Shown: one piece after another, positions 2,381 through 40,515 of the stretch | How positions within the stretch are numbered: the first letter of the stretch is position 1 | Layout: every line of letters starts with the position of its first letter | DNA from: Calditrichales bacterium MX18-03 | GTDB taxonomy: Bacteria; Bacillota; Clostridia; Lutisporales; Lutisporaceae | Reading direction: 5' to 3' | DNA length: 64,000 nucleotides | NCBI GenBank assembly: GCA_021083345.1 | Contig: JAJGRE010000001.1 | Location: forward strand, 1,054,001-1,118,000 | Translations under genes and position numbers: made by a program | The notes under the pieces: model-generated | The model's input: the letters and a program-made list of their open reading frames with translations, nothing else | Database searches by the model: none | Told to the model about the DNA's origin: nothing

Positions 2381-2821
2381 TTAATCGTTGATATCTTCGC
2401 TCCAATGCCGCTGTGAAGATGCTCTGTTGAAGCTGAAAAAAAGCGCCTGGACCTGTTCGGTTTTCAAAAATGCAATCAGGCTCTCGATAGCCAGTATGGT
2501 AGACGAGCAGAGGTAGTGCTCCATGGCCTCCGCTTCCTTTGCTATGTCGCAATCACTATTGATGGTGCGCAAAAAATCCTGAAGCATGCTGTTTCTTCTG
2601 ACCAGCAGCACGCCCAGCCTGTCTCCCGCTTCTGTCAGTGTGATTCCCTCGTGCCGTTTGTATCGGATGTAGTCTTCATCGTTGAGTTTTTTCAAAGCTC
2701 TTACAACAGAAGGTGAAGAGACATTCAGCTTCGCTGCAATATCCCCTACCCGTACCTTGTCCTTTAAGAGGGACAACCGGTAGATTTCTTCCAAATAATC
2801 TTCCTGGCTTGGAGACAACAT
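2381..2821 (-). CDS. DtxR/MntR-family metal-dependent transcriptional regulator
   Basis: This 146-aa protein has the N-terminal winged HTH of the family (VRVGDIAAKLNVSSPSVVRALKKL) and a metal-binding/dimerisation domain. Compared by eye with Bacillus MntR, the ligands Asp8, Glu11 and the Glu-x-x-Glu-His group (EAMEHYL) are kept, but the position of MntR His77 is Asn (RRNSMLQDFL), so metal preference may differ. Start ATG at 2821 has AAAGGAAGAG upstream. It is divergent from a ZIP transporter, and the shared intergenic region has two copies of a 14-bp dyad. The inference is that it represses the transporter and possibly itself when metal is plentiful. Confidence 0.88.
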   Translation of the reverse strand: MLSPSQEDYLEEIYRLSLLKDKVRVGDIAAKLNVSSPSVVRALKKLNDEDYIRYKRHEGITLTEAGDRLGVLLVRRNSMLQDFLRTINSDCDIAKEAEAMEHYLCSSTILAIESLIAFLKTEQVQALFFSFNRASSQRHWSEDIND

Positions 2822-2928
2822 GGCACTCTTCCTTTCTCTGCTGATACGCTGCCCATTTCAGCGCTTCGTCGTTTTGCACAGGTCACCTTTCCATACCATC
2901 CGTCATATGATGGAATTAGGTCGAATTC

Positions 2929-2942
2929 TTAGCTTCAGCTAA
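2929..2942. promoter_or_regulatory. Operator-like dyad, copy 1
   Basis: The sequence TTAGCTTCAGCTAA is a perfect inverted repeat (TTAGCT, 2-bp spacer, AGCTAA). An identical copy lies 95 bp away at 3024-3037. DtxR-family operators are AT-rich dyads of similar type. It sits between the divergent regulator and ZIP genes. Confidence 0.75.
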
Positions 2943-3023
2943 CAATTCAACAACACCTTTGCAGAAAGCCGTTTACGCCCTCACTATTTGATATTCAGGC
3001 TTCCTCAGATTTATGTGCCATTA

Positions 3024-3037
3024 TTAGCTTCAGCTAA
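3024..3037. promoter_or_regulatory. Operator-like dyad, copy 2
   Basis: This is an exact copy of the 2929-2942 dyad. It ends 26 bp before the ZIP start codon and just upstream of its AAGGAGG site, so a bound repressor would block transcription of the transporter gene. Confidence 0.75.
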
Positions 3038-3063
3038 CTTTCAGCATAAGGAGGACTTAAGAA

Positions 3064-3879
3064 ATGATAATAAGCTGGTTTCAGCATCTGGATCCTATCT
3101 GGCAGGCCTTGCTGGCTACCTGCTTCACATGGTTTGTAACGGCACTGGGTGCGGCTCTGGTTTTCCCCTTTAAAAGCGTCAGCAGAAAAGTTATGGATAC
3201 CATGCTGGGGTTCGCAGCGGGTGTTATGATAGCAGCCAGCTTCTGGTCCTTGCTCTCTCCTGCCATTGAAATGGCGGAACAGACGGATACACCTGCCTGG
3301 ATTCCAGCAGTGGTCGGCTTTCTATCCGGCGGCCTGAGCCTGCGGTTGATTGACAGATTCCTTCCTCATATTCATGCCGGCCTCTCCCTGAGTGAAGCAG
3401 AAGGCATAAAAACCAGCTGGCAAAGAAGTATCCTGCTGGTGCTGGCCATCACGCTGCACAATATTCCTGAAGGTCTTGCCGTGGGTGTAGCCTTCGGTGC
3501 CCTGAAAGCCGGCCTGCCCTCGGCTTCCCTGGCAGGTGCCGTAGCGCTGGCTATCGGCATCGGACTGCAGAACTTCCCGGAAGGCGCATCTGTATCCATT
3601 CCCCTTCGCCGTGAGGGTTTTTCCCGTCTGAAAAGCTTTTGGTACGGCCAGTTATCCGGTGTGGTGGAGCCCATCGCAGGGGTTCTCGGTGCCGCTGCAG
3701 TCATCTCCATGAAATGCATCTTGCCTTATGCATTGTCCTTTGCAGCAGGCGCCATGATCTTCGTTGTTGTGGAAGAGCTGATACCCGAATCCCAGCTGGA
3801 AAAGCATGCCGATATTGCCACAATGGGTGCCATGCTGGGCTTCGCAGTCATGATGCTGCTGGATGTGGCATTGGGATAA
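3064..3879 (+). CDS. ZIP family divalent metal transporter (GufA-like)
   Basis: The 271-aa integral membrane protein has about eight hydrophobic segments. The two signature membrane motifs are HNIPEGLAVGV (TM4) and QNFPEGASVSIPL (TM5), whose His, Asn and Glu residues form the metal site in ZIP transporters; a VEEL motif follows in TM6. Family members import Zn2+, Mn2+ or Fe2+. Start ATG at 3064 follows AAGGAGG. The position opposite a DtxR/MntR-type regulator and two dyad operators suggests metal-repressed uptake. A hairpin follows the stop. Confidence 0.93.
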   Translation: MIISWFQHLDPIWQALLATCFTWFVTALGAALVFPFKSVSRKVMDTMLGFAAGVMIAASFWSLLSPAIEMAEQTDTPAWIPAVVGFLSGGLSLRLIDRFLPHIHAGLSLSEAEGIKTSWQRSILLVLAITLHNIPEGLAVGVAFGALKAGLPSASLAGAVALAIGIGLQNFPEGASVSIPLRREGFSRLKSFWYGQLSGVVEPIAGVLGAAAVISMKCILPYALSFAAGAMIFVVVEELIPESQLEKHADIATMGAMLGFAVMMLLDVALG

Positions 3880-3885
3880 AAAAAG

Positions 3886-3926
3886 AGGCGCAGCTCTGAA
3901 TGTGAACTGCACCTCCTTATTTACTT
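3886..3926. terminator. Convergent-gene terminator hairpin
   Basis: An imperfect inverted repeat (AGGCGCAGCT... with ...AACTGCACCT, two mismatched or G-U positions) lies between A-rich and T-rich flanks, between the convergent ZIP and nitrilase genes. It could serve both. Confidence 0.55.
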
Positions 3927-4751
3927 ATTTATTCTTAAGCTGTAGACATCATGCCGGAGGCTGCTTAATAGCGGAAGCTCTCCCCGATATTTCTCCACTT
4001 TGCTCAGATCGATTTCCTGCACCAGAATGCCCTCTTCATAACCCAGCCTTCCGGTTATGTTTCCCCAAGGATCCGCCACCAGGGAATTCCCATAGGACTT
4101 ATAGGAAGCTTGACTATTCTGAGCAGGGGCGATCCCCGCCGCAAAGACCTGGTTGTCCAGGGCTCTGGTCCTGAAAAGCAGTTCCCAGTGAGCCGGTCCG
4201 GTGGTCATGTTGAAGGCTCCCGGTGTGATTATCACCCTTGCGCCCTGCTGCACCATGAGCCTGAATAATTCAGGAAACCGGATATCGAAGCAGATGGCAG
4301 CACCCATCTTCCCATAGGGTGTCTCGAATACCGTAACCGAATTGCCTGCTGTCAGAACGTCGGATTCCTTGAAATACTGGCCTCCCTTGACATTGATATC
4401 AAAAAGGTGCATTTTTCTGTGCTTCCCTATCTTTCGACCCTCTTTGTCAAATATGTAACAGGTATTGTAGACCTTCCCGTCACCATCGATTTCAGGCATG
4501 GAGCCACCCACAAGAACAACGCCCTGCTCCCTGGCAATCCTCGAAAGCCGTTGGTAGGAAGCACCGCCTTCCTCCTCGCTGTAGTGTCTGAAATAGCTGT
4601 TGTCATACGGGCAGTTGAACATTTCGGGCAGCGCAACGACCTGCACTCCTTGCTCAGCGGCTTTCTCAACCATACGCTCTGCTCTGTCCAGGTTATTCTC
4701 TTTCGCTTCTTCCACATGCATTTGTACAAGACCGATCTTTAAGGGTTCCAT
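3921..4751 (-). CDS. Carbon-nitrogen hydrolase, omega-amidase (Nit2)-like
   Basis: The 276-aa protein has the complete nitrilase-superfamily Glu-Lys-Cys triad: Glu in ALPEMFNCPY, Lys in GKHRKMHLFDI and Cys in AAICFDIRFPE. The HLFDI motif and overall length fit the Nit2/omega-amidase branch, which hydrolyses alpha-ketoglutaramate and alpha-ketosuccinamate. Substrate assignment is inference from family resemblance. Start ATG at 4751 has GGAGGGAAGG upstream. The next gene upstream is hutD, 150 bp away on the same strand. Confidence 0.9.
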   Translation of the reverse strand: MEPLKIGLVQMHVEEAKENNLDRAERMVEKAAEQGVQVVALPEMFNCPYDNSYFRHYSEEEGGASYQRLSRIAREQGVVLVGGSMPEIDGDGKVYNTCYIFDKEGRKIGKHRKMHLFDINVKGGQYFKESDVLTAGNSVTVFETPYGKMGAAICFDIRFPELFRLMVQQGARVIITPGAFNMTTGPAHWELLFRTRALDNQVFAAGIAPAQNSQASYKSYGNSLVADPWGNITGRLGYEEGILVQEIDLSKVEKYRGELPLLSSLRHDVYSLRINK

Positions 4752-4900
4752 TTCCTTCCCTCCCGTTCAACTAGATCTGGTTTTTCCATAATCTATAGGT
4801 TAACGCTATTTTATCATAACCCCCTCAATTTTGCTATCATGCAGGTCCGCAGAAATGGTTTTTCTCTACTTCCCGAATAATAAAATATCCAATCTGAGAA

Positions 4901-5518
4901 TTAATACTGAATACCGCTTTTGATGATCACAGCGGCATTACCGTGTTTATTCTCCAGCTTCAGTACATGCGGCTCCCATTCATCCTGAAAATCTATGCGA
5001 AGCAAATCGCCTGGCAGCAAGTCATGGCTTTCTTCGTTAACGGTAATCTGCACGCTGCCTTCACAACAGTAGTAAGCCTCCGTATATTTAGAATCTACCT
5101 CAGTGCTGTTTCTGCCTGAAATTATGGACTGAACCTGGTTTACGACCCGTATTGCTTCGATTGTACCCATGCAGCCTTCACCCAGCATGAGATTGAAATC
5201 GGTTACCCGCCCCTTGCTTCTGGTTTTCCATGCACCACTGAAACTGTCCTGGTCATAGGGCTTCAGAGTCACAGAATGGTGACCCTCATGTTCCAGAGCC
5301 AGAACACCTTCGATGATCATCAGGAACCGCCAGAAGCCGGGCAAAGGTGTAAACTCCGATTCCTCAGCCTCTACCTGCGCAGAGCTGAGCCGCCACCTGA
5401 AATCACGTCTGGCATATTCCGCCTGCTCCGGATAGATAGCCAGCTGCATCGTTGTCCCTCCCGACCAGGCCGTGACGGCTTGCTGACTTTTCCTTATATG
5501 CGTTATTGTCATTGACAT
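4901..5518 (-). CDS. hutD: HutD family protein (bicupin)
   Basis: The 205-aa protein matches HutD: WSGGTTMQLAIYP near the N-terminus, then DFRWRLSSAQVEAEESEFTPLPG and RFLMIIEG, all characteristic of the family. HutD proteins accompany histidine utilisation and may sense or bind a pathway intermediate; no other hut gene is in the window. Two in-frame ATGs exist near the start. I chose 5518 because AAAGGGG lies 9 nt before it, whereas it abuts the ATG at 5527. It is divergent from the c-di-GMP enzyme gene. Confidence 0.85.
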   Translation of the reverse strand: MSMTITHIRKSQQAVTAWSGGTTMQLAIYPEQAEYARRDFRWRLSSAQVEAEESEFTPLPGFWRFLMIIEGVLALEHEGHHSVTLKPYDQDSFSGAWKTRSKGRVTDFNLMLGEGCMGTIEAIRVVNQVQSIISGRNSTEVDSKYTEAYYCCEGSVQITVNEESHDLLPGDLLRIDFQDEWEPHVLKLENKHGNAAVIIKSGIQY

Positions 5519-5737
5519 ATGCGGCATCCCCTTTCTATATCATTCGGACTTTTCCATCGTTTTTTCTTCTGCTATATTTTCTCTCTTTTTCCGTAAACTC
5601 CTTCTTCTTGCACAGTGTTGCATTGCTTTCGCAAAAGTGCTAAAATTTATTTTAGATTATGTATCACATATCCCGTTATTACTTTGATTCTACTTATTCC
5701 AACAATAAAAAACAAACTGCAGATAGGAAGTAATAAT

Positions 5738-8245
5738 ATGAAAATACGTGATAAGGCGATTGCCATCTTTACTTTGCTGATACTGCTGCTCATTACCGGG
5801 GGTTATCTGATAACCAAGCCGTTTTTTTTTAATGCCATCTATGCTCAGGAAGCGGAAAAAGCAAGGGTAGCTAAAGAGCGAACGCTGTACCTGCTGCAGG
5901 AAAGCGGTGCCAACCTGGAAACCCTCGTGGGAGACTGGGCGCCTTGGGATGATACGCTGTACTTCATAAACAATCATAATGAAGATTATATTACGGACAA
6001 CCTGAACGATGCCACCCTTGCCAATTTGCAAATCAATGCAGCTGTTTTTCTGGACAAGCAGCGTCAGATCGTTTTCTCCATAGGCAATGATTCAGAGACA
6101 GACCTCAATACAGCAGTTTCCGACAACCTGCTGAAGTATATCCAATCTCATTTGGACCTTTTCTACAGCAATGACGGACAATTCAGCACCAGCTCAGGCA
6201 TTGTCGTCTTACCGGAAGGGCCTATGCTGGTTTCTTTTGCTCCGATAACCGATTCTGAATTCCGCACAACATCCTCCGGCATCCTTGTATTCGGAAAGTA
6301 TCTGGATGAAAACCTGCTCAGCCATATCGAGCAAATCGTACAAGCCGAATTACACTTGGAATCTGCCGATTCCCAAAGACTGTCCCGGCTGGGCACAGCG
6401 CTTGGTAAGCCTGAAATAGCGGGACATTTGACGGCTGGGGAATCCTTTAACCATCCTGTAGATGACAACACGCTTGAAATTTATTTTTATATCACCTCTT
6501 TGGACGGCCAGTCCAATTTGCTTGCCAAACTTACCACCAACAGGACCATCTATACCTCAGGCGTTCAGTCCTTTAATTTTTTTCTACTTGTTGCTATTTC
6601 TTTCATACTTGCCATAACGATACTCTCCCTATATTTGCTTCAGCGCTATCTGGTCAAGCCTATGCTGGAACTAAGCAGCACTATTGAGAGGATCGACCTG
6701 AGCAGCAACCGCTTCAGCCGCCTGGAAGTAAAAAGCACGGATGAACTGGGCAGGCTCTCCAATGAAATCAACAGCATGCTTGAGCGGATGGAGCAGGACA
6801 ACGTACGCATTGTTGGAAACGAGCGGAAGCTCATGCAGGTTTTTGAAGCCTCCGAGGCAGGTTTTTTTGACATGAACTTGCTGGACCACACCCTCTACTT
6901 GAGCACCAATCTATATGCCATGCTGGAATATCCGCCTCACGACGGTTATGTTTCCATCGATTTTTGGAAAGATCTGATGTTTCCGGAGGATCTGGAAAAT
7001 ATCAGCAAGATGTTCCGGAATGTCCCCAAATATTATTCTGAGCTTCAGAATGCTGAATTCAGAATATGCAGCAGATCCGGGATTTTCAAATGGTTCATGA
7101 TTCGCAGCAGCATAGCGGAATATGATCAAGACGGCAGCCCCAAACGGATTACCGGTATCATCATTGGTATCGATGAAAAGAAAAAGATTGAGGAAGACCT
7201 TAAGTACCTCAGCTTCCATGATAAGCTGACAGGCATCTACAATAGAAGCTATTTTGAATATGTTTTGAACAACCGGATCAATGCAGCCGACATGCCCTTA
7301 AGCATCATCATCGGTGATTTGAATGGATTAAAAGTCATCAACGATGCTTTCGGCCATGCAGAAGGCGATAATCTCTTGATAACCGTTGCCAACGTGCTGG
7401 TCAAATCCTGCCGTCAGCAGGATGTTGCCTGCCGCTGGGGCGGAGATGAGTTTGCACTCATATTGAAAAACGCCGATGAAGCATTGGCAGAAGCGGTCTG
7501 TGATAAGATACGGTATGAAATGGACCGGATCGGGGACCAATATATCTCCCTGAATATTTCCCTGGGTTACTCCACCAGGCACCAATTGGAGCAGGATAAA
7601 GCCGCCATCATCCGGGAAGCGGAGGAGCGGATGTACCGCAACAAGCTTTTCGACGACAGCAGTGTCCGCAACAGTATCCTTGCCTCCCTCAAGCGTGCCC
7701 TCTACGAAAAAAGCTTTGAAACGGAAGAGCACACAGAAAGAATGTACGATAAATGCAAGAAAATCGGCATCCGATTGAACATGAGCAATGCCAAAATCGA
7801 TGAGCTGTCTTTGCTGGCTGTTTTGCACGACATCGGCAAGGTTGCCATCAGCGACAGCATCCTGAATAAGCCCGGGCCTTTGACCGCCGAAGAATGGGAA
7901 ATCATGAAAACCCACAGTGAAATAGGCTACCGGATTGCAAACTCCTCCCCTGAAATCAGCCATATCGCTTACCCCATCCTTTGCCATCATGAGCGCTACG
8001 ATGGCAAAGGCTATCCCAGGGGCATCAAGGAAAAAGAGATTCCGACGCTGTCAAGGATCATTTCCATTGTTGATGCCTTTGATGTCATGACCCACGACAG
8101 GCCTTACAGGCAGCGGATTACAGCAGTTGAAGCCATCCGAGAGCTTAATGCCTGCAGCGGCGCCCATTTTGATCCTGAACTGCTGAAGGTCTGTATAGAA
8201 GTATTTGAAGAAGATTTGGCAATTGAAGAAGGGCTCCCTGCATAG
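5738..8245 (+). CDS. CHASE4-HAMP-PAS-GGDEF-HD-GYP cyclic di-GMP signalling protein
   Basis: The 835-aa membrane protein has an N-terminal TM (residues about 8-28), a periplasmic CHASE4-like sensor with the WAPWDD motif, a second TM near residue 280, HAMP, PAS, a GGDEF domain and a C-terminal HD-GYP domain. Both catalytic sites look intact: RWGGDEF with an RxxD inhibition site (RQQD) five residues before it, and HDIGK plus HHERYDGKGYP. It could therefore both make and break c-di-GMP, with product feedback at the I-site. Start ATG at 5738 has AGGAAG; an upstream extension to 5615 lacks a ribosome binding site and is rejected. Confidence 0.93.
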   Translation: MKIRDKAIAIFTLLILLLITGGYLITKPFFFNAIYAQEAEKARVAKERTLYLLQESGANLETLVGDWAPWDDTLYFINNHNEDYITDNLNDATLANLQINAAVFLDKQRQIVFSIGNDSETDLNTAVSDNLLKYIQSHLDLFYSNDGQFSTSSGIVVLPEGPMLVSFAPITDSEFRTTSSGILVFGKYLDENLLSHIEQIVQAELHLESADSQRLSRLGTALGKPEIAGHLTAGESFNHPVDDNTLEIYFYITSLDGQSNLLAKLTTNRTIYTSGVQSFNFFLLVAISFILAITILSLYLLQRYLVKPMLELSSTIERIDLSSNRFSRLEVKSTDELGRLSNEINSMLERMEQDNVRIVGNERKLMQVFEASEAGFFDMNLLDHTLYLSTNLYAMLEYPPHDGYVSIDFWKDLMFPEDLENISKMFRNVPKYYSELQNAEFRICSRSGIFKWFMIRSSIAEYDQDGSPKRITGIIIGIDEKKKIEEDLKYLSFHDKLTGIYNRSYFEYVLNNRINAADMPLSIIIGDLNGLKVINDAFGHAEGDNLLITVANVLVKSCRQQDVACRWGGDEFALILKNADEALAEAVCDKIRYEMDRIGDQYISLNISLGYSTRHQLEQDKAAIIREAEERMYRNKLFDDSSVRNSILASLKRALYEKSFETEEHTERMYDKCKKIGIRLNMSNAKIDELSLLAVLHDIGKVAISDSILNKPGPLTAEEWEIMKTHSEIGYRIANSSPEISHIAYPILCHHERYDGKGYPRGIKEKEIPTLSRIISIVDAFDVMTHDRPYRQRITAVEAIRELNACSGAHFDPELLKVCIEVFEEDLAIEEGLPA

Positions 8246-8789: not shown

Positions 8790-8940
8790 AAAAACCGTCT
8801 TCTTGCGAAAACCGCAGCACAAATATACCTGTCTCAGGTACCTGCTGCTCCTTTCCAATGGGGAGGCACTGCTGTTTCCGGCAATACCCTGACGGTCCAT
8901 ATCCCATGAGGATGAACTTTTTAGGCACATGGACTCGGAG
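8790..8940 (-). ncRNA. Structured 5' leader, riboswitch-like (class not identified)
   Basis: The leader between the promoter (8957-8985) and the terminator (8744-8776) has several possible hairpins on the minus strand. These include a CCTAA...TATGG pair like an 11-nt tetraloop receptor, a GC-rich stem closed by a GAAA loop (GCCGGAAACAGC), CTCC-CCATTGGAAA-GGAG, and ACCTG-AGA-CAGGT. A tetraloop plus receptor is seen in several riboswitches, including c-di-GMP-I and Moco RNA. The text GCCTCCC...GGAG...AGGTACC reminds me of the Moco motif, but I could not confirm that. The downstream gene is a pseudogene. Confidence 0.55.
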
Positions 8941-8956
8941 CTGTGAAATTGTATAC

Positions 8957-21168: not shown

Positions 21169-21323
21169 TGGCAGAGTAGGCTGTTATGCGTTAAGTGCCG
21201 GATGAACGGGAAGTTGACGCCCGGACGAAAAATCCTTGTGATTTGCGGTATGACAGCCGCATTCCGCTGTCACTTAATGAGCCCGATTCTCTTTAAGTGG
21301 CATATGTTTGCTGTTTAAAGAGA
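21169..21323 (+). ncRNA. Tetrahydrofolate (THF) riboswitch controlling folT
   Basis: The element has the THF class core: AGAGTAG after a P1 5' strand (TGGCAG, 21169-21174), the GCGTTAAGTG block, and a P1 3' strand (CTGTCA, 21267-21272). P2 pairs GGCTGTTAT (21179-21187) with ATGACAGCC (21250-21258). Downstream, CACTTAA (21271-21277) can pair with TTAAGTG (21293-21299), or TCTCTTTAA (21288-21296) can pair with TTAAAGAGA (21315-21323) next to the AGGAGGTG. The two hairpins exclude each other, so folate would switch translation. The folT gene downstream fits this known class. Confidence 0.9.
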
Positions 21324-33111: not shown

Positions 33112-35334
33112 ATGAACTATCCGCATAAACAGCAGGAAGAAACCCACTATCTCAAAAGCACATTGGCATTCCTGGAAAAGACCATTGAAAACGAGTATGA
33201 CAGCCTAGCAGAAAGAAAGCATGATATGCTGACCTCGCGCCGGGAGATGTGGGAGAACTCTGCCCATGCCTCCCACGATTTCGACAAACTGACTGAGATG
33301 AATCAATATCTGACGGAGGTCATAAACAGTACGGCACAGTACTCAGAGAAACACAGATTACTGACCCGGCTGGAAAAGCTTATGGATACTCCTTACTTCG
33401 GCCGGTTTGATTTCCTGGAAGTCGGCACTGACCAAATTGAGAAAATCTATATCGGCTTATCCAATATCATCAACCGTGAGACGGGGGACATATGGGTCTA
33501 CGATTGGCGAGCACCCATTTCCAGCATTTTTTACCGTTATGAACTTGGCAATGCACAGTACAACGCGCCCATGGGAGCCATAAAAGGCCAGGTTTCCCTC
33601 AAGCGGCAATACAAAATCAGGTATGGATCCTTAGTTTATTTCTTTGACTGCAGTATTGCCATCAACGATGAGATGCTGCAGGAGATCCTCAGCAGCAATG
33701 CATCGCCCAAAATGCGCAGCATAGTGGAATCCATACAAAAGGAACAGGATACCATCATCCGGGATGAGGTCAACGAGCTGCTGATTGTGCAGGGCACTGC
33801 CGGCAGCGGCAAAACCTCTGTTGCACTGCATCGCATTGCCTTTCTGCTTTACCAGGGTCTGAGCGTCCGGCTGACCGCCCAGAATATCGTCATCGTCTCG
33901 CCCAATCAGATATTTAGCGGATATATTTCCGATGTTCTGCCCGGACTGGGGGAAGAAAACGTCAATCAGTTCACCTTCGATGACTTTTCCAGGCAGCAGC
34001 TGGCAGGGCGTTATACCATGGAAAGCAGGAATCAGCAGCTGGAAAGGCTGGTTTTGTCCGATTCTGCAATCAGCTTGAAGCAACATGGTGCAGCTGCCTT
34101 CAAAGGTTCTGATTGTTTTCTGAAGCTGCTGGGCCGCCTGCTGGCCCATTACGAACGCCATATGGTCAGTTTTGAAGATATTTATTATGACGGTAAGGTC
34201 CTTCTGACCCGGCAGCAGCTTAGAACCGCTTTTCTGAACAGTCGGAAAACACTGCCGATGACCGGAAGAATGAAAAGCCTTGAGCTGATGATTTTTGATA
34301 AAATACACACATATCGCAAGGCCCGGCTTCATAAGATCCAGAAGTTCTTAACAACAATGGACGGGCACGAGCTTGACGCAAAGTCCTTCGGGAGGCTGCT
34401 GGCCATCAAGGAAGCCAGGACCTTCACCCGACGGCTGAGAAAAACAACAGACATCGACTTTTTCAAGCTTTACGAAATGTTGTTTTCACAGGCAGGGCTG
34501 CTGAGAAAGCTTTCCAAAGGGCTGGCCCTTCCTGACGACCTTGAAAGCATCGTTTCAGAAACCAGATGTTACCTTCGAGAAAAGCAGCTCCGGTTTGAGG
34601 ACTGCGCTCCCCTGCTCTATCTCAAATTCACACTGGAGGGCTGGGATCAGTTCCCGGATATCCGCCATGTAGTCATTGATGAAGCACAAGACTATTCCCT
34701 GCTTCAATACGTGGTTTTCAAACAGCTTTTCAGGTACGCCTCCTTCACCATTCTGGGAGATGTTCATCAGACAATGTCTCCCTACGCTGAAGGTGCCTTG
34801 TATGAGCGCATCGCCCATATTTTTGAAAAACAGAGGTCCGCCAAGATAACCATGAAAAAAAGCTACCGCTCAACCTATGAGATAACTGAATATGCAAACA
34901 AGATACCGGATACACCGTTACTCATCGATACAGCAGATCGGCATGGCAAAGAGCCCCATGTGGAAGAGTTTCGGGACGAAGCAGCTTTGGAGCAAGCAAT
35001 CCTGCAAACAGCTTCCATGTATCTGGATCAAGGCTACGAGACAGTCGCAGTCCTCTGCAAAACAGCAGCGGAGGCTCAGCGTTTTCATGCGCGGCTGGTA
35101 AACTGTTCCGGCATGAAGCTGTTCTGCTCCGGGGTTGAAGAAATGCAGAAGGGCATCCTCATCCTGCCTGTATATCTATCGAAAGGACTGGAGTTCGATG
35201 CTGTCATCATTGCCAACGCCAATGCCGCTAATTATTTCGATGCGATGGACAGAAGGCTTCTATATATCGCCTGCACCAGAGCGTTGCACCGTCTATCGCT
35301 TTTCCATACCGGAGAAAAAAGCCCTTTCATCTGA
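33112..35334 (+). CDS. helD: UvrD-like superfamily 1 helicase, HelD type
   Basis: The 740-aa protein has a coiled-coil N-terminus (TLAFLEKTIENEYDSLAERKHDM), Walker A GTAGSGKTSVALHRIAFLLYQ, Walker B VIDEAQDYSLLQ, GDVHQTM (motif III), and C-terminal SYRSTYEI, YLSKGLEFDAVII and YIACTRALHRL motifs. Clostridial/Bacillus HelD of this form binds RNA polymerase and releases stalled complexes from nucleic acid. Assignment rests on the length and the N-terminal coiled coil that true UvrD/PcrA lack. ATG 33112 has AGAAGGAG upstream. It converges on the selenoprotein candidate. Confidence 0.9.
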   Translation: MNYPHKQQEETHYLKSTLAFLEKTIENEYDSLAERKHDMLTSRREMWENSAHASHDFDKLTEMNQYLTEVINSTAQYSEKHRLLTRLEKLMDTPYFGRFDFLEVGTDQIEKIYIGLSNIINRETGDIWVYDWRAPISSIFYRYELGNAQYNAPMGAIKGQVSLKRQYKIRYGSLVYFFDCSIAINDEMLQEILSSNASPKMRSIVESIQKEQDTIIRDEVNELLIVQGTAGSGKTSVALHRIAFLLYQGLSVRLTAQNIVIVSPNQIFSGYISDVLPGLGEENVNQFTFDDFSRQQLAGRYTMESRNQQLERLVLSDSAISLKQHGAAAFKGSDCFLKLLGRLLAHYERHMVSFEDIYYDGKVLLTRQQLRTAFLNSRKTLPMTGRMKSLELMIFDKIHTYRKARLHKIQKFLTTMDGHELDAKSFGRLLAIKEARTFTRRLRKTTDIDFFKLYEMLFSQAGLLRKLSKGLALPDDLESIVSETRCYLREKQLRFEDCAPLLYLKFTLEGWDQFPDIRHVVIDEAQDYSLLQYVVFKQLFRYASFTILGDVHQTMSPYAEGALYERIAHIFEKQRSAKITMKKSYRSTYEITEYANKIPDTPLLIDTADRHGKEPHVEEFRDEAALEQAILQTASMYLDQGYETVAVLCKTAAEAQRFHARLVNCSGMKLFCSGVEEMQKGILILPVYLSKGLEFDAVIIANANAANYFDAMDRRLLYIACTRALHRLSLFHTGEKSPFI

Positions 35335-35341
35335 TGCAGCA

Positions 35342-35665
35342 TCACTCAACTAGTATGTTCAAGCCTTCAATCTCGAGCTTTCTTAAATAAAACAGCTTCT
35401 CAATGCGTATTAAGACTTCCTTATTCTCTGTCGTATCAATCCTGGGTGATAGATAGATTTCAACGCCGCCGGCATCAAAGCGGGAAAACCCGCTTCTGAT
35501 GCTTTCTTTTTTGAATCCCATTCGCACCGAAGGGATATAGTACCGCTTGGTACCACCACAGCCTCACCCAGGATTCGTTACATTCAACATCATTTCAACG
35601 ATTAAAAAAAGCGCATTATTTTTTTTCAAATATTCCTTTACATCCTCTGTCACCGATATGTTCAT
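35342..35665 (-). CDS. Probable selenoprotein (Sec34 encoded by in-frame UGA), 107 aa
   Basis: Reading through the TGA at 35564-35566 gives one continuous 107-aa frame. A 33-residue N-terminal part ends NVTNPG, then comes UGCGGTKRYY, then a C-terminal part with GGVEIYLSPRID and LRKLEIEGLNILVE. The frame on both sides looks like one small HesB/IscA-like domain. I recall small HesB-like selenoproteins from Clostridia with Sec near Cys. Right after UGA an 8-bp stem (GTGGTACC/GGTACTAT, two G-U pairs) with loop AAGC begins, loop at 16-19 nt, as in bacterial SECIS elements. ATG 35665 has AAAAGG upstream. It is 74 bp downstream of the permease gene, after a terminator. Confidence 0.7.
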
Positions 35666-35690
35666 AGACTGCACAACCTTTTCTAGAATA

Positions 35691-35724
35691 CTAAAACCGG
35701 ACAGCCTGCATCGAGACTGTCCGG
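35691..35724 (-). terminator. Terminator of the 4-hydroxybutyrate operon
   Basis: CCGGACAG (35697-35704) and CTGTCCGG (35717-35724) pair with a 12-nt loop and are followed on the minus strand by TTTTAG. It ends the dehydratase-to-permease operon before the selenoprotein candidate. Confidence 0.8.
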
Positions 35725-35738
35725 AAATACTTGTGGAT

Positions 35739-37106
35739 TTATGCTGCTTCTTCTGTCTGCTCGAATATGATCTCGTCATATTGTGGCTTGTTTCCAAGGT
35801 TTATCAGGATAGAAAGGATGATCCCTACTGCAAGGCCCCATGCTGCACCCCTTGTCGCAAGAACAGCGCCCATAACGCCTGCAATGCCCAGGTCATTGCC
35901 TGTACGTGCCTTCAACACGCCTACCTTAACTGAAACGTAGCCCTGAATCAGCATCGTGGAGGCCAATGCAATGCCAAGTATCGGCTTAACCAGCGTTACA
36001 ATCGGAAGGATGAAATATCCGGTAAGTGTACCGAACCGGAACGAACCTGCTCCTCCGTTGATTGAATCCATTGCTTCCTTGCCATGCTTGTATCTTTCAC
36101 ATACGACGACCTGCATTGCTGCCCACAGGGGACCACACATCGTAATATCAGGTCCGAACAATGACATCAATATGTTTCTTAAACCGAAGACCATATGGGA
36201 ACGATTAGGATTATAATCTATGAGTTCGTCCGGTCTGACTTTGGCTGAATCGTCAAGCAGCGCCTTGGATTGGATCATATCTCCGAATAGTATGATATAA
36301 GCTGAGAATACCATCGGCAGACCACTTATGAACAGCGATAATGGCGGGAAACCTACACCAAAGAAAGTCCATTCTCTAAATAGTGTGCCGAAAGCCGGCT
36401 GTGTAATTCCCCACTCAATGACCGGCCATTTTGTCTCTCCGACGAGAGGGCCTATTACAACTGCAAGGGCAATAACAGGTAGTATTCCGAGGTTCGATAT
36501 CATTTTGAGAACAGCGTTATTGTTTTTGATGCTTTTAAAGTGATTAGAGAACAACAGATAGAATCCAAGTCCGATACAAATCGTGATTGAAATCGGGAAG
36601 GTATCAAAACGCTGACCTTTGTTGAATATGACCATTACTGCAGCAAAGCCTGATCCTACAATAATTCCGCACTGCATCGCGTTCGGTACGAAGGATATGA
36701 TTTTCTTTCCAAAACCTGTAATACCGAGTACAAATGCCAGAAGGCCCAATGTCAGTTCAAAGGCTATCAGAGCCTGAACCCTTTCAGGTCCCATCGGGAA
36801 CTGCGAAACGTAGAGCATGAGAAGCGGTATCGCAGGTGTTACCCACCCGGGCACCACCGGATCACCTAGAAAAATATGAGCGCAATAGAGTATTCCATTC
36901 AGTACAACAACGGCAATTGCAACTTCGAAGGGCATTCCCAAATAGTCCTGCAGCATCGGGATGGCTCCCAGACACACTGCGCACATCAATAAACCTTGTA
37001 GATAATCAGCCCACTCAAATCGGTAGTGAACAAACGGGATACGAATTTTAAAAGGGCCTGCCGGAATGTATGGTTGTTCCTTACCAAATTCTCTTTTCAA
37101 TGCCAC
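35739..37106 (-). CDS. Putative permease, last gene of the 4-hydroxybutyrate operon
   Basis: The 455-aa protein has about 12-14 TM segments and a general resemblance to the NCS2/SulP-type (UraA-like) permeases. WVTPAIPLLMLYVSQF, PNAMQCGIIVGSGFA and GPDITMCGPLWAAMQVVVCERYKHG look like conserved substrate-site helices. I cannot assign a substrate from sequence alone. Being the fifth gene behind abfD and the CoA-transferase (33-bp gap) suggests it carries the carbon source, for example 4-hydroxybutyrate, 4-aminobutyrate or a related acid. ATG 37106 follows AAGGGGGAAT. Confidence 0.75.
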   Translation of the reverse strand: MALKREFGKEQPYIPAGPFKIRIPFVHYRFEWADYLQGLLMCAVCLGAIPMLQDYLGMPFEVAIAVVVLNGILYCAHIFLGDPVVPGWVTPAIPLLMLYVSQFPMGPERVQALIAFELTLGLLAFVLGITGFGKKIISFVPNAMQCGIIVGSGFAAVMVIFNKGQRFDTFPISITICIGLGFYLLFSNHFKSIKNNNAVLKMISNLGILPVIALAVVIGPLVGETKWPVIEWGITQPAFGTLFREWTFFGVGFPPLSLFISGLPMVFSAYIILFGDMIQSKALLDDSAKVRPDELIDYNPNRSHMVFGLRNILMSLFGPDITMCGPLWAAMQVVVCERYKHGKEAMDSINGGAGSFRFGTLTGYFILPIVTLVKPILGIALASTMLIQGYVSVKVGVLKARTGNDLGIAGVMGAVLATRGAAWGLAVGIILSILINLGNKPQYDEIIFEQTEEAA

Positions 37107-37139: not shown

Positions 37140-38465
37140 TTAAAAACTGCTGCGAAATCTTTTTTCCCATTCTTCTATCAATTGAGGTCTAAAGTCGGGG
37201 TGTGCTATTCCGATTAAAGCTCTTCCTCGCTCTTTCAGACTTCTGCCTTTGAGATCCGCAATACCGTATTCCGTTACGATAAATCGGACATCATTCCTCG
37301 AAGTCGTTACCGCACCTCCTTCATCTAAAAACGGGACAATTCTGGATACCTTTCCGCCCGAGGCGGTCGAAGGCATGGCTATGATCGATTTTCCATCCTG
37401 CGCCATGCTTGCCCCTCTGACAAAATCCACCTGGCCTCCCACACCGCTGAATTGTTTAAGACCGATGGTTTCCGACGCGACCTGACCCATCAGGTCCACC
37501 TGCACACAAGAATTGACGGACACCATCTTGTAGTTTTTCATGATCACCACAGGGTTGTTTACATAATCCACAGGGTGCATTTCAACCATGGGATTATTGT
37601 TTACAAAATCGTATAACCGCTTGGTTCCCATCAGGAAGGTGACGACAATCTTACCCGGATGCAGCGTTTTCATCCGGTTGGTAACGACACCCGCTTCCAC
37701 TAGTTCGACGACGCCATCAGAAATCATTTCCGAGTGAATCCCCAGATCCTTTTTATCCTTCAAGAAAAGCAGCACTGCATCCGGTATGGCGCCAATTCCA
37801 AGCTGCAGAGTGGATCCATCTTCTATCAGCGAAGCGCAGTTCTCTCCGATAGCCCTTTCAACTTCCGTTATTTGCGGAGGTTTTAGTTCTACCAAAGGAT
37901 ATGAAGCTTCAACAAAGTAGTCGACCTCCGAGACATGAACGAAGGAATCTCCCATAGTTCTCGGCATTCTGTCATTCACCTGCGCAATAACGGTTTTTGC
38001 ACTTTTCAGCGCCGGTTTTGTATAGTCCACCGATACGCCCAGGCTGCAATAGCCATGTTCATCCGGCGAGCTGAGCTGTACAAGTGCAACATCTACAGGT
38101 AAATAGCCTTCGCGGAAAAGCTTTGGGACCTCAGAGAAGAAACAAGGTGTATAATCCGCTCTGCCTTCGCTTACTGCCTCTCTCGTAACTGCCCCCACAA
38201 AAATGGCATTATGGTGAAAGTGTGGAGCCATCTCAGGTTTTGTATACGCACCCTTGCCCATCGCTACCATGTGAACGATTTCAACATTGTTGTAAAGTTC
38301 CTTATTCCTTACCATGGCCTCTACAATCTCAAGAGGCTCCCCCACTGCATGCCCTAACACGACCCTGTCACCGGATTTTATTTTGCCGACTGCCTCATCG
38401 GCACTAACAACTCTTTCTCTGTACAAAGTCTTCCAGTCCAATTGCACCACCCTTTCGAGCATCAT
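37140..38465 (-). CDS. abfT: 4-Hydroxybutyrate CoA-transferase
   Basis: The 441-aa protein is an acetyl-CoA hydrolase/transferase family member. It is strikingly close, as far as I recall, to C. aminobutyricum AbfT: SLIEDGSTLQLGIGAIPDAV, HSEMISDGVVELVEAG with the catalytic Glu, TFLMGTKRLYDF, GLKQFSGVGGQVDFVRGAS and TSRNDVRFIVTEYGIADLKG. It moves CoA from acetyl-CoA or butyryl-CoA to 4-hydroxybutyrate. The start codon overlaps the stop of the small gene before it (TGATG), showing translational coupling. The GAGG site is within the end of that gene. Confidence 0.95.
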   Translation of the reverse strand: MMLERVVQLDWKTLYRERVVSADEAVGKIKSGDRVVLGHAVGEPLEIVEAMVRNKELYNNVEIVHMVAMGKGAYTKPEMAPHFHHNAIFVGAVTREAVSEGRADYTPCFFSEVPKLFREGYLPVDVALVQLSSPDEHGYCSLGVSVDYTKPALKSAKTVIAQVNDRMPRTMGDSFVHVSEVDYFVEASYPLVELKPPQITEVERAIGENCASLIEDGSTLQLGIGAIPDAVLLFLKDKKDLGIHSEMISDGVVELVEAGVVTNRMKTLHPGKIVVTFLMGTKRLYDFVNNNPMVEMHPVDYVNNPVVIMKNYKMVSVNSCVQVDLMGQVASETIGLKQFSGVGGQVDFVRGASMAQDGKSIIAMPSTASGGKVSRIVPFLDEGGAVTTSRNDVRFIVTEYGIADLKGRSLKERGRALIGIAHPDFRPQLIEEWEKRFRSSF

Positions 38466-38737
38466 TGATCCTCAATTTTCTTTATTAACTCTTCGTATGC
38501 TGCTGAAAAATCATCTTCCCTGGCTATGATTATTACAGCACCTTTATGCTTAAGTCTGCTGTAATCCGCGCACCTGCTGCTGCACCCGCAAATGACCACA
38601 AGAACATCATAGTCTTTTCCTTCACGGGCAGTTTCAACGGTATACGTTTTGTCCCCAGTTGCTGTAAGGCGCCTTACCATTCCAGCCCGGTCATATTTTG
38701 GGTTGCAGCCGCCGCAGTATTTAATTCCGGCTTTCAA
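38462..38737 (-). CDS. Small Cys-rich protein, 91 aa, in the 4-hydroxybutyrate operon
   Basis: The protein starts MKAGIKYCGGCNPKYDRAG and later has VVICGCSSRCADYSRL, giving five cysteines in CxxC-like and CxCxxxC patterns suited to a metal or Fe-S centre or a thiol relay. Hydrophobic strands (YDVLVVICGCS, KGAVIIIARE) suggest a small alpha/beta fold. The CGGCNP..DR motif seems to recur in anaerobic Clostridia next to Fe-S enzymes, but I know no function. It lies 1 bp from the Nfu-like gene and overlaps abfT, so an accessory role for the Fe-S dehydratase is a fair guess. Confidence 0.75.
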   Translation of the reverse strand: MKAGIKYCGGCNPKYDRAGMVRRLTATGDKTYTVETAREGKDYDVLVVICGCSSRCADYSRLKHKGAVIIIAREDDFSAAYEELIKKIEDQ

Positions 38738-38738
38738 A

Positions 38739-39029
38739 TCAATTCCCCTTATCTGCTCTTTTATTCAAAATCTGCCTTGCCAGATCCAGCATATCAGCGC
38801 TAACCGCATCCGCGAGTATCACTTGCTTTATTTCCCTGATTTCATGCTTTAATGCTGTTGCGACAATTTCCTCAACGGTGATTCTTGCCGAAGGGCACCC
38901 GCTGCAGTTGCCAAGAAGTCTTACGGTGACAATGCCGTCAATGGCTTCCACAACCTCAATGTCTCCATGGTGGTTTTTCAGGTAGGGCTTTACTTTTTCT
39001 TCAATTATTTTTTGAACCTTGTCAAGCAT
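38739..39029 (-). CDS. Nfu-type Fe-S scaffold domain protein
   Basis: The 96-aa protein is a single NifU C-terminal (Nfu) domain. It begins KVQKIIEEKVKPYLKNHHGDIEVVEAIDGIVTVRLLGNCSGCPSARITVEEIV, where CSGC is the cluster-binding pair. Nfu proteins hand 4Fe-4S clusters to apo-enzymes. The gene lies 22 bp behind abfD, whose product needs a 4Fe-4S cluster, so dedicated cluster supply is likely. ATG 39029 follows GAGGGAACGAT; the longer frame is not supported. Confidence 0.93.
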   Translation of the reverse strand: MLDKVQKIIEEKVKPYLKNHHGDIEVVEAIDGIVTVRLLGNCSGCPSARITVEEIVATALKHEIREIKQVILADAVSADMLDLARQILNKRADKGN

Positions 39030-39051
39030 ATCGTTCCCTCGAATCCAATGG

Positions 39052-40515
39052 TTAGATTTTGCTCTCATCTATTCTGGCTATCGCTTTTGCCAGCTCTTTC
39101 TTATGTGCCAGGTTACCTTGCCGCGCAATCATGATCCGCTGTGCCTGAGGTGAGCCCGCACCATGCATGGATTCTGTCCTGTAGCCTACTGCTGCCGTAC
39201 CTAATGTAAGGTTTTCGATCAAGCGCAGAATTCTCATTCTGTTTTCCGTAGAAACGGTGGCGACACCCTTCAGATATTTTTCTATATATGGACCTACCTT
39301 CGGATCTCTGAAATCCTGCTCGGAAGGCATCGTTACCATGATTCCGCCGGCTATATCCTCTGCCAGACGCGCTATTTCATATGGGAACCGCGTTACATTC
39401 TGTTTGCATACATTGGCGAGCAGCAAATCAATCTGATAGTTTCCTGCTTCAGTGGGGTATCCTTCCGCCGAACAGGCTATTCCGCAGCTGTATAAGGTTT
39501 CGTTCAAATGTGTCATTTCAATAAGTTTATCTTTTATATGAGATGCTTTTGCTGCACCGTTATAATCTGCAGCAAGTGCCGCAGCCCCGATCAAAACATC
39601 ACCTACGCCTACCTTGCAGCCGCCGTAGCTCTGCCTGTGATAGCCTGCAAACCGCTCAACCAGTTCGCCTGCATAATCCGTTTCTCCATTCAAGAAAATC
39701 CTCTCATTTGGCACGAACACGTTATCGAATATGACCAATGCTTCATGGCCGCCAAAGTTCTTATTGCCGACATCGATGTCAGCACCTTCTTCCAGTTTTC
39801 GGGTATCGCAGGATTGTCTTCCATAGATCATAAAAATACCATCTGTATCGGTAGGTACCGCAAATGCAATGGTCCAATCCTTGTCTTCCGGCCTCATTGC
39901 AATGGTTGGCATTACAATGACTTCATGAGAATTGACCATACCGGTCTGATGTACCTTGGCACCTTTAACGACAACACCATCCGGCCTTCTTTCAACAATA
40001 CGGAGATACAGGTCTTTATCTGCCTGCTGACTGGGTGACAAGCCTCTGTCACCTTTTGGATCCGTCATTGCGCCATCAACTGTCAAGTCGTTCTTCTGCA
40101 CAAATTCCCAGTATTTCCTGAAATTCTGATGGTAGTTGGTCCCATATGCCTTGTCAGCATCGAAAGTTGTGCTGAACAGTGCATTTCCTGCATCCATACC
40201 GACACATCTCTGAAAACAGGCTGCTGTATTTTGTCCCAGCAACCTTAGCATTTTTACCTTTTTTCGCAGATCATCCGTGCTTTGGTGCAGGTGCGTGAAT
40301 CTGTTTATCTTTTCACCGGTCAGGTTTGATGTTGCCGTCATCAAGTCTTCATATTCAGGGTTTTCCGCAAAGGCATATGTCATGGAAACCGAATTCATAG
40401 AGGGTCGAATAATCGGATGGTCCACTGTGTTTTGAACAAGCTCTCCAAACATGTAAACCTTCAGATCCAGTTTACGCAAGCTTTCTACATATTGGTCCCT
40501 GGTCATTAAAGCCAT
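39052..40515 (-). CDS. abfD: 4-Hydroxybutyryl-CoA dehydratase / vinylacetyl-CoA isomerase
   Basis: The 487-aa protein matches AbfD of C. aminobutyricum along its full length. It keeps the cluster Cys pair CFQRCVGMD (near residues 100-104) and the HRQSYGGCKVGVGD segment with the His and Cys ligands. ADIDVGNKNFGGHEALVIFDNVF and YRTESMHGAGSPQAQRIMIARQGN are also diagnostic. The FAD and 4Fe-4S enzyme dehydrates 4-hydroxybutyryl-CoA to crotonyl-CoA and is oxygen sensitive. ATG 40515 follows AAAGGAAGGAT. The gene leads a five-gene operon from a sigma-54 promoter 50 bp upstream. Confidence 0.97.
   Translation of the reverse strand: MALMTRDQYVESLRKLDLKVYMFGELVQNTVDHPIIRPSMNSVSMTYAFAENPEYEDLMTATSNLTGEKINRFTHLHQSTDDLRKKVKMLRLLGQNTAACFQRCVGMDAGNALFSTTFDADKAYGTNYHQNFRKYWEFVQKNDLTVDGAMTDPKGDRGLSPSQQADKDLYLRIVERRPDGVVVKGAKVHQTGMVNSHEVIVMPTIAMRPEDKDWTIAFAVPTDTDGIFMIYGRQSCDTRKLEEGADIDVGNKNFGGHEALVIFDNVFVPNERIFLNGETDYAGELVERFAGYHRQSYGGCKVGVGDVLIGAAALAADYNGAAKASHIKDKLIEMTHLNETLYSCGIACSAEGYPTEAGNYQIDLLLANVCKQNVTRFPYEIARLAEDIAGGIMVTMPSEQDFRDPKVGPYIEKYLKGVATVSTENRMRILRLIENLTLGTAAVGYRTESMHGAGSPQAQRIMIARQGNLAHKKELAKAIARIDESKI

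Follow-up and report, generated by a model that had tools for sequence, protein, structure and literature searches.

The CC/Se motif family (NCBIfam model NF041239, CC/Se motif family (seleno)protein) is a hypothetical selenoprotein predicted in Moorella thermoacetica and is listed in Table 1 of a 2026 review (PMC13188914). According to the same source, the HesB-like selenoproteins (TIGR01911) bear the motif UxGP, and the hairpins that act as SECIS elements in bacteria have a loop of 3-9 nt with a G in one of its first two positions, a stem of 4-16 bp, a distance of 16-37 nt from the UGA and an MFE <= -7.5 (PMC13188914). Selenoprotein genes are missed or split in routine annotation. Here, we describe a gene that bears on this matter and on how a SECIS may move within a coding region, located in a stretch of 64,000 nucleotides (the window) from the anaerobe Calditrichales bacterium MX18-03.

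A read-through gene and its neighbourhood

On the minus strand of the window, a reading frame that opens with ATG 35665 meets an in-frame TGA at codon 34 (35566-35564) and, when this codon is read through, stays intact for 73 further codons up to the stop TGA at 35344-35342. The read-through product of positions 35342-35665 has 107 residues, MNISVTEDVKEYLKKNNALFLIVEMMLNVTNPG-U-GCGGTKRYYIPSVRMGFKKESIRSGFSRFDAGGVEIYLSPRIDTTENKEVLIRIEKLFYLRKLEIEGLNILVE, and its thiol and selenol content amounts to one Sec (U34) and one Cys (C36), two residues apart. The initial annotation had given exactly this start, in-frame codon, end and length, and the placement of Sec one residue from a Cys is indeed seen in the motif G-U-G-C. 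It had also anticipated that annotation would split the gene, as happens with standard ORF calling, which yields a TTG-started piece of 77 residues (35564-35797) and a GTG-started piece of 61 residues (35342-35527); the GTG “start” of the latter is the Val47 codon of the selenoprotein. When the window was scanned for further genes with an in-frame TGA, none was convincing by eye. The features of the locus are collected in Table 1.

Table 1. Features of the selenoprotein locus (positions in the window).
Feature	Position	Strand	Basis or remark
Selenoprotein gene, 107 residues, predicted IscA-like fold, NF041239-related	35345..35665	-	Read-through translation, NCBIfam match, homologues, AF2 model
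Sec codon 34, in-frame TGA, motif G-U-G-C	35564..35566	-	Sequence; Sec/Cys in column 34
Hairpin 1, GTGGTACC-AAGC-GGTACTAT, SECIS candidate of the initial annotation	35537..35556	-	Loop 15 nt after UGA
Hairpin 2, TCCCTTCG-GTG-CGAA-T-GGGA, best SECIS candidate	35516..35535	-	By rule and by family position
Terminator-like hairpin, 11 pairs then TTTTAGTATT	35697..35724	-	Between upstream membrane-protein gene and selenoprotein gene; 1 found, 0.5 expected
Upstream co-directional membrane protein, NCS2/purine-permease-like by eye, without Pfam match	35739..37106	-	
Convergent UvrD-like helicase, end 7 nt from end of selenoprotein gene	33112..35334	+	

Farther upstream there are genes for a CoA-transferase, a NifU-domain protein and an HpaB-type enzyme (4-hydroxybutyryl-CoA dehydratase-like, by eye). 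Because the terminator-like hairpin separates the selenoprotein gene from these genes and the homologue in Clostridium liquoris has different neighbours, the neighbourhood is uninformative on its role.

The same stretch holds other elements of some interest. The genes for the NifU-domain protein (38739-39068) and for a small Cys-rich protein with CGGC and ICGCSSRC motifs (38462-38737, both on the minus strand; no Pfam match) stand between those of the CoA-transferase and the HpaB-type enzyme, for which they perhaps provide a dedicated Fe-S supply. Additionally, a Molybdenum cofactor riboswitch (8832-8952, minus strand) and a tetrahydrofolate riboswitch (21170-21271, plus strand) score well above threshold. 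A plasmid search gave no match.

Homologues and the selenocysteine machinery

The read-through protein matches NF041239 over the full length of the model (1-91/91; E 1.3e-9, 38 bits), and the part after the TGA alone still matches it (E 2.3e-6). A search of 391 genomes of the class with the read-through protein gave matches at E <= 0.01 in 20 of them, some of the weakest being spurious. The apparent relative L064 was rejected as an rnfC-like gene in another reading frame, and the weak matches L054-L056, L058 and L059 appear spurious.

Found in the family of C. liquoris, the closest relatives of the window gene align with its entire read-through product, with either U or C at position 34. The homologue of C. 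liquoris itself (L042 = L065; 35% identity) has its UGA at the same place, as do L116, L117, L119 and L120, while L114, L115 and L118 have Cys at the Sec position. Sec or Cys occupies column 34 in all eight aligned members of the subfamily (the window protein and seven relatives). This pairing comes from the alignment of the closer subfamily, which was adopted for the analysis; a whole-family MAFFT alignment placed C36 instead of U34 in the Sec column, and a short MAFFT alignment of the DNA broke up the TGA of the window gene, leaving the hairpin columns unaffected. The initial annotation had called for a search for such homologues, spanning both halves and with Cys in place of Sec, and they do exist.

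In a tree that rests on a 100-residue protein, the window gene is basal (support 95/82) to a clade of five Sec and three Cys forms, in which both kinds are intermingled. In the related pairs L119/L120, L005/L010, L106/L107 and L116/L117, the differences fall mostly in third codon positions, both before and after the UGA. Other NF041239-type loci are present in the host genome, two that carry a single in-frame TGA and a third that carries a pair, and these paralogues have UGA at the corresponding site; NF041239-type relatives with one TGA are distributed across the phylum.

The bacterial Sec system, whose presence the initial annotation had also asked to be verified, is complete in the host. 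A tRNA-Sec with a TCA anticodon is encoded about 39 kb past the end of the window, and selB, selA and selD are neighbours at C7:1180574-1184980, with match scores of 372 bits for SelB, 634 bits for SelA and 390 bits for SelD. The host selD (G000:C7:1184060-1184980), which adjoins selA and selB, has one in-frame TGA, and SelD itself is probably a selenoprotein.

These results bear on a simpler explanation, in which the gene is a degraded remnant of a Cys- or Sec-protein gene (a pseudogene or a sequencing error) and the UGA is a plain stop. UGA is, after all, a stop in most genes, the gene sits behind a terminator-like hairpin and none of the hairpin statistics described below is decisive for the window gene alone. 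By contrast, the frame continues intact past the UGA for 73 codons, the homology is full-length, the same UGA recurs in C. liquoris and the four other Sec relatives as well as, at the corresponding site, in the host paralogues, and the machinery to decode it is in place. Such a degraded gene is thus highly improbable. The proposal of an unannotated selenoprotein is backed by the Sec/Cys exchange at position 34, the Sec machinery and the hairpins specific to Sec forms, and we hold with high confidence that the stretch is a single gene for a 107-residue selenoprotein with a predicted IscA-like fold; this confidence covers the identity of the protein, not its role.

Hairpins downstream of the UGA

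Hairpins in register with a TGA are frequent. The window contains 2686 TGA trinucleotides; some hairpin in register follows 601 of them, while 263 are followed by one that obeys the loop-G rule and 49 by an unbroken stem of eight or more pairs. An in-register hairpin alone is therefore weak evidence for the window gene, and synonymous recoding of this gene alone did not give significance for its hairpins (p 0.09-0.11). Similarly, codon identity between the window gene and that of C. liquoris is not significantly higher in hairpin 1 (5/7) than elsewhere (13/28; p 0.22). It is homology, and not the hairpin itself, that excludes chance. Across the family, 41 Sec genes have a best hairpin under the SECIS rules that exceeds those of synonymous recodings (median p 0.06), which does not hold for 11 Cys genes (median 0.44); this difference (Mann-Whitney p 2.5e-4) is indicative only, as the rows are related and kinship is uncorrected. 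This indicates that Sec forms have hairpins beyond the demands of the protein sequence and that Cys forms are without them.

Two hairpins follow the UGA of the window gene. Hairpin 1, which the initial annotation took for the SECIS, has the features described there, namely a stem of eight pairs and the 4-nt loop AAGC at nt 16-19 after the UGA, with its G in third position. The loop had been regarded as placed like that of bacterial SECIS elements, but the spacing of 15 nt lies outside the published range and hairpin 1 consequently fails two rules, that for the loop G and that for distance. Nevertheless, hairpin 1 is real, and all Sec relatives in the subfamily retain it. Its inner six pairs (GGTACC/GGTACT) are preserved in 6/6 Sec members compared; L116/L117 show one C-G to U-A double change there. 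Three Cys members each have one or two of these pairs broken. This comparison covers few sequences and small helix counts. The outer U-A pair is found in the window gene only, and the loop of L116/L117 is AAAA, without any G.

Hairpin 2 is the more rule-abiding of the two. Its loop, GTG, is exactly the Val47 codon and starts 36 nt after the UGA with G in first position, and with -8.7 kcal/mol it passes every SECIS rule. Many of the examined family members have a hairpin over the codons for P-S/T-V-x-M/L-G, in which hairpin 2 lies (in the main clade, e.g., CCGAC-AGTTCA-GTTGG). Within the subfamily, hairpin 2 is complete or nearly so in the window gene, L116 and L117, and mostly lost in C. liquoris, L119 and L120, whose hairpin 1 has the loop AGGC, with G second, at 18 nt from the UGA. 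In the Cys forms L114 and L115, hairpin 2 is spoiled because Glu replaces Ser in P-S-V-R-M-G. These two forms, with P-E-V-R-M-G, and the Sec forms L116 and L117, with P-S-V-R-M-G, belong to one genus-level clade, in which the Ser codon seems to have been held by the SECIS and released after the loss of Sec.

We propose that SelB, with Sec-tRNA, would read the UGA at 35566-35564 as Sec under the guidance of the RNA just downstream, hairpin 2 (loop G-U-G, 36 nt after the UGA) being the most likely guide. Hairpin 1 would fold within the long spacer that separates the UGA from hairpin 2, thereby shortening or stacking this spacer, and it may possibly serve as a second or weaker site. Alternatively, hairpin 1 might be the only SECIS that matters in this selenoprotein gene, and hairpin 2 might simply follow from the protein motif PSVRMG, as hairpin 1 alone is kept by all six compared Sec members, with one or two of its pairs broken in each Cys member. 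Additionally, C. liquoris has hairpin 1, with a loop G in second position and 18 nt of spacing, without hairpin 2, and builds it with the codons ACC, CGG and TAC, of which CGG is missing from the long ORFs around its gene. However, the AAGC loop of the window gene at 15 nt is outside the published rules (PMC13188914), and L116/L117 have no G in the loop of hairpin 1 while their hairpin 2 is intact or nearly so, which makes an exclusive role of hairpin 1 unlikely.

The simplest reading of these few sequences would be that hairpin 2 is the ancestral SECIS and that hairpin 1 was added by insertion and took over in one branch. The SECIS would then have moved within the subfamily, from the PSVRMG hairpin at 36 nt to a new hairpin at 18 nt in a 5-residue insertion, and the window gene, which has both, would be a living intermediate, perhaps with a two-hairpin SECIS; we consider this possible, if on balance doubtful. 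In any case, the subfamily offers a series that can be lined up, of Sec forms bearing the old site, the new one or both and of Cys forms short of pairs in both hairpins, in which such movement can be followed.

Predicted fold and possible role

The initial annotation had likened the protein to small HesB/IscA-like selenoproteins, a guess that agrees with the predicted fold and not with the known HesB selenoprotein model, TIGR01911, which the protein does not match. An AF2 model, built with the window, C. liquoris and Dethiosulfatibacter sequences as input, is of moderate confidence (pLDDT 75), lowest at residues 32-38, that is, at the site itself. In a Foldseek search with this model, IscA, SufA, ErpA-like and DsrR structures lead the PDB matches (best E 5.6e-4) with nothing else close, and in a comparison with PDB structures by VIA, Z reached 8.7 (2.7 A over 90 residues). 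The window protein is therefore predicted to fold like IscA/SufA. The link to IscA came from fold comparison only, as profile searches of PDB sequences gave nothing solid and Pfam, PF01521 included, had no match to the window protein; among CC/Se family members, 12/17 match PF01521 weakly (best E 2.3e-6), and those that were listed singly stay below its gathering score.

Judging from the fold and the motif, the protein could tentatively be regarded as a dimeric carrier. The dimer would take up a nascent Fe-S cluster, a metalloid or a soft metal ion via U34/C36 and then hand its cargo on, as A-type carriers do. The main alternative, a redox enzyme (a peroxide or disulphide reductase) working through a U-x-C selenenylsulphide, with no metal carriage, is somewhat less likely. 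It is true that U34 and C36, being two residues apart, could form such a bond, that the C-terminal Cys pair of IscA is lacking and that selenoproteins without an assigned role are mostly presumed to be redox proteins (PMC13188914), but the predicted fold is of IscA type and not of thioredoxin type, relatives have vicinal CC, CU, UC or UU, as is often seen where metals or metalloids are bound, and the double-Sec relatives are located among arsenic-resistance genes.

These double-Sec relatives are IscA-like as well and make up a sister family whose genes have two in-frame UGA codons next to each other (motif G-UU). The family is represented by L144 (G000:C10:15500-25500, positions 2677-7278) and also by L019, L020, L022 and L023. 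In the host, the locus of the UU protein is an arsenic operon with genes for ArsR, an SBF/Acr3-like transporter, a phosphoesterase, the UU protein, ArsD and two ArsA, and several other members of the UU family have ArsA-, Acr3- or ArsM-like neighbours, by eye. The UU protein is possibly a metalloid chaperone. As the host form scores 32.8 bits against NF041239, below the cut-off of 40, that model would not name it. This double-UGA branch in arsenic operons is the best clue to the role of the window protein, for which it tentatively favours U34/C36 as a carrier site for metal or metalloid on an IscA scaffold, and the branch provides a functional lead for the IscA-like selenoprotein family.

The host genome has five IscA/HesB-superfamily loci with in-frame UGA (C7:1089345, C10:211203, C9:489011, C10:20301 and C7:1348517), which comprise three NF041239-like loci with one UGA (the window gene included), one UU form and one weak TIGR01911 match. 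This looks like an expansion.

Comparison with known families

The A-type Fe-S carriers IscA, SufA and ErpA (PF01521) are the best structural matches in the PDB and cover nearly the whole chain. The window protein differs from them in having U34 and C36 in place of the three cysteines of IscA, with Sec at the site and without the Cys pair of the C-terminal C-G-C motif.

With the HesB-like selenoproteins, it shares the superfamily, by fold, a small size and the presence of Sec in an IscA-like domain. By contrast, their published motif, UxGP (PMC13188914), differs from the G-U-G-C of the window protein, for which TIGR01911 (cut-off 66.35 bits) gave no match at E <= 1; this cut-off was passed by no locus in 61 genomes.

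The closest likeness is to the CC/Se family, with a full-length match, a UGA in the same loop, an IscA-like domain and a hairpin over the PxVxxG codons, the place that most of the family uses for its SECIS. However, the window protein stays at 38 bits, under the curated cut-off of 40, and no tested member of its subfamily reaches that value (24.5-38 bits in the window clade, 20.3 in L121), so that the subfamily sits just below what the model would name. Its site is U-x-C and not a vicinal CC, CU or UC, although L114 and L115, Cys forms from the same clade, do show a vicinal CC. Furthermore, about five extra residues after the site encode hairpin 1, and the SECIS candidates of the gene lie in two places. 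The CC/Se family is already catalogued as a predicted selenoprotein family, and the branch to which the window gene belongs is a new, divergent sister branch of it.
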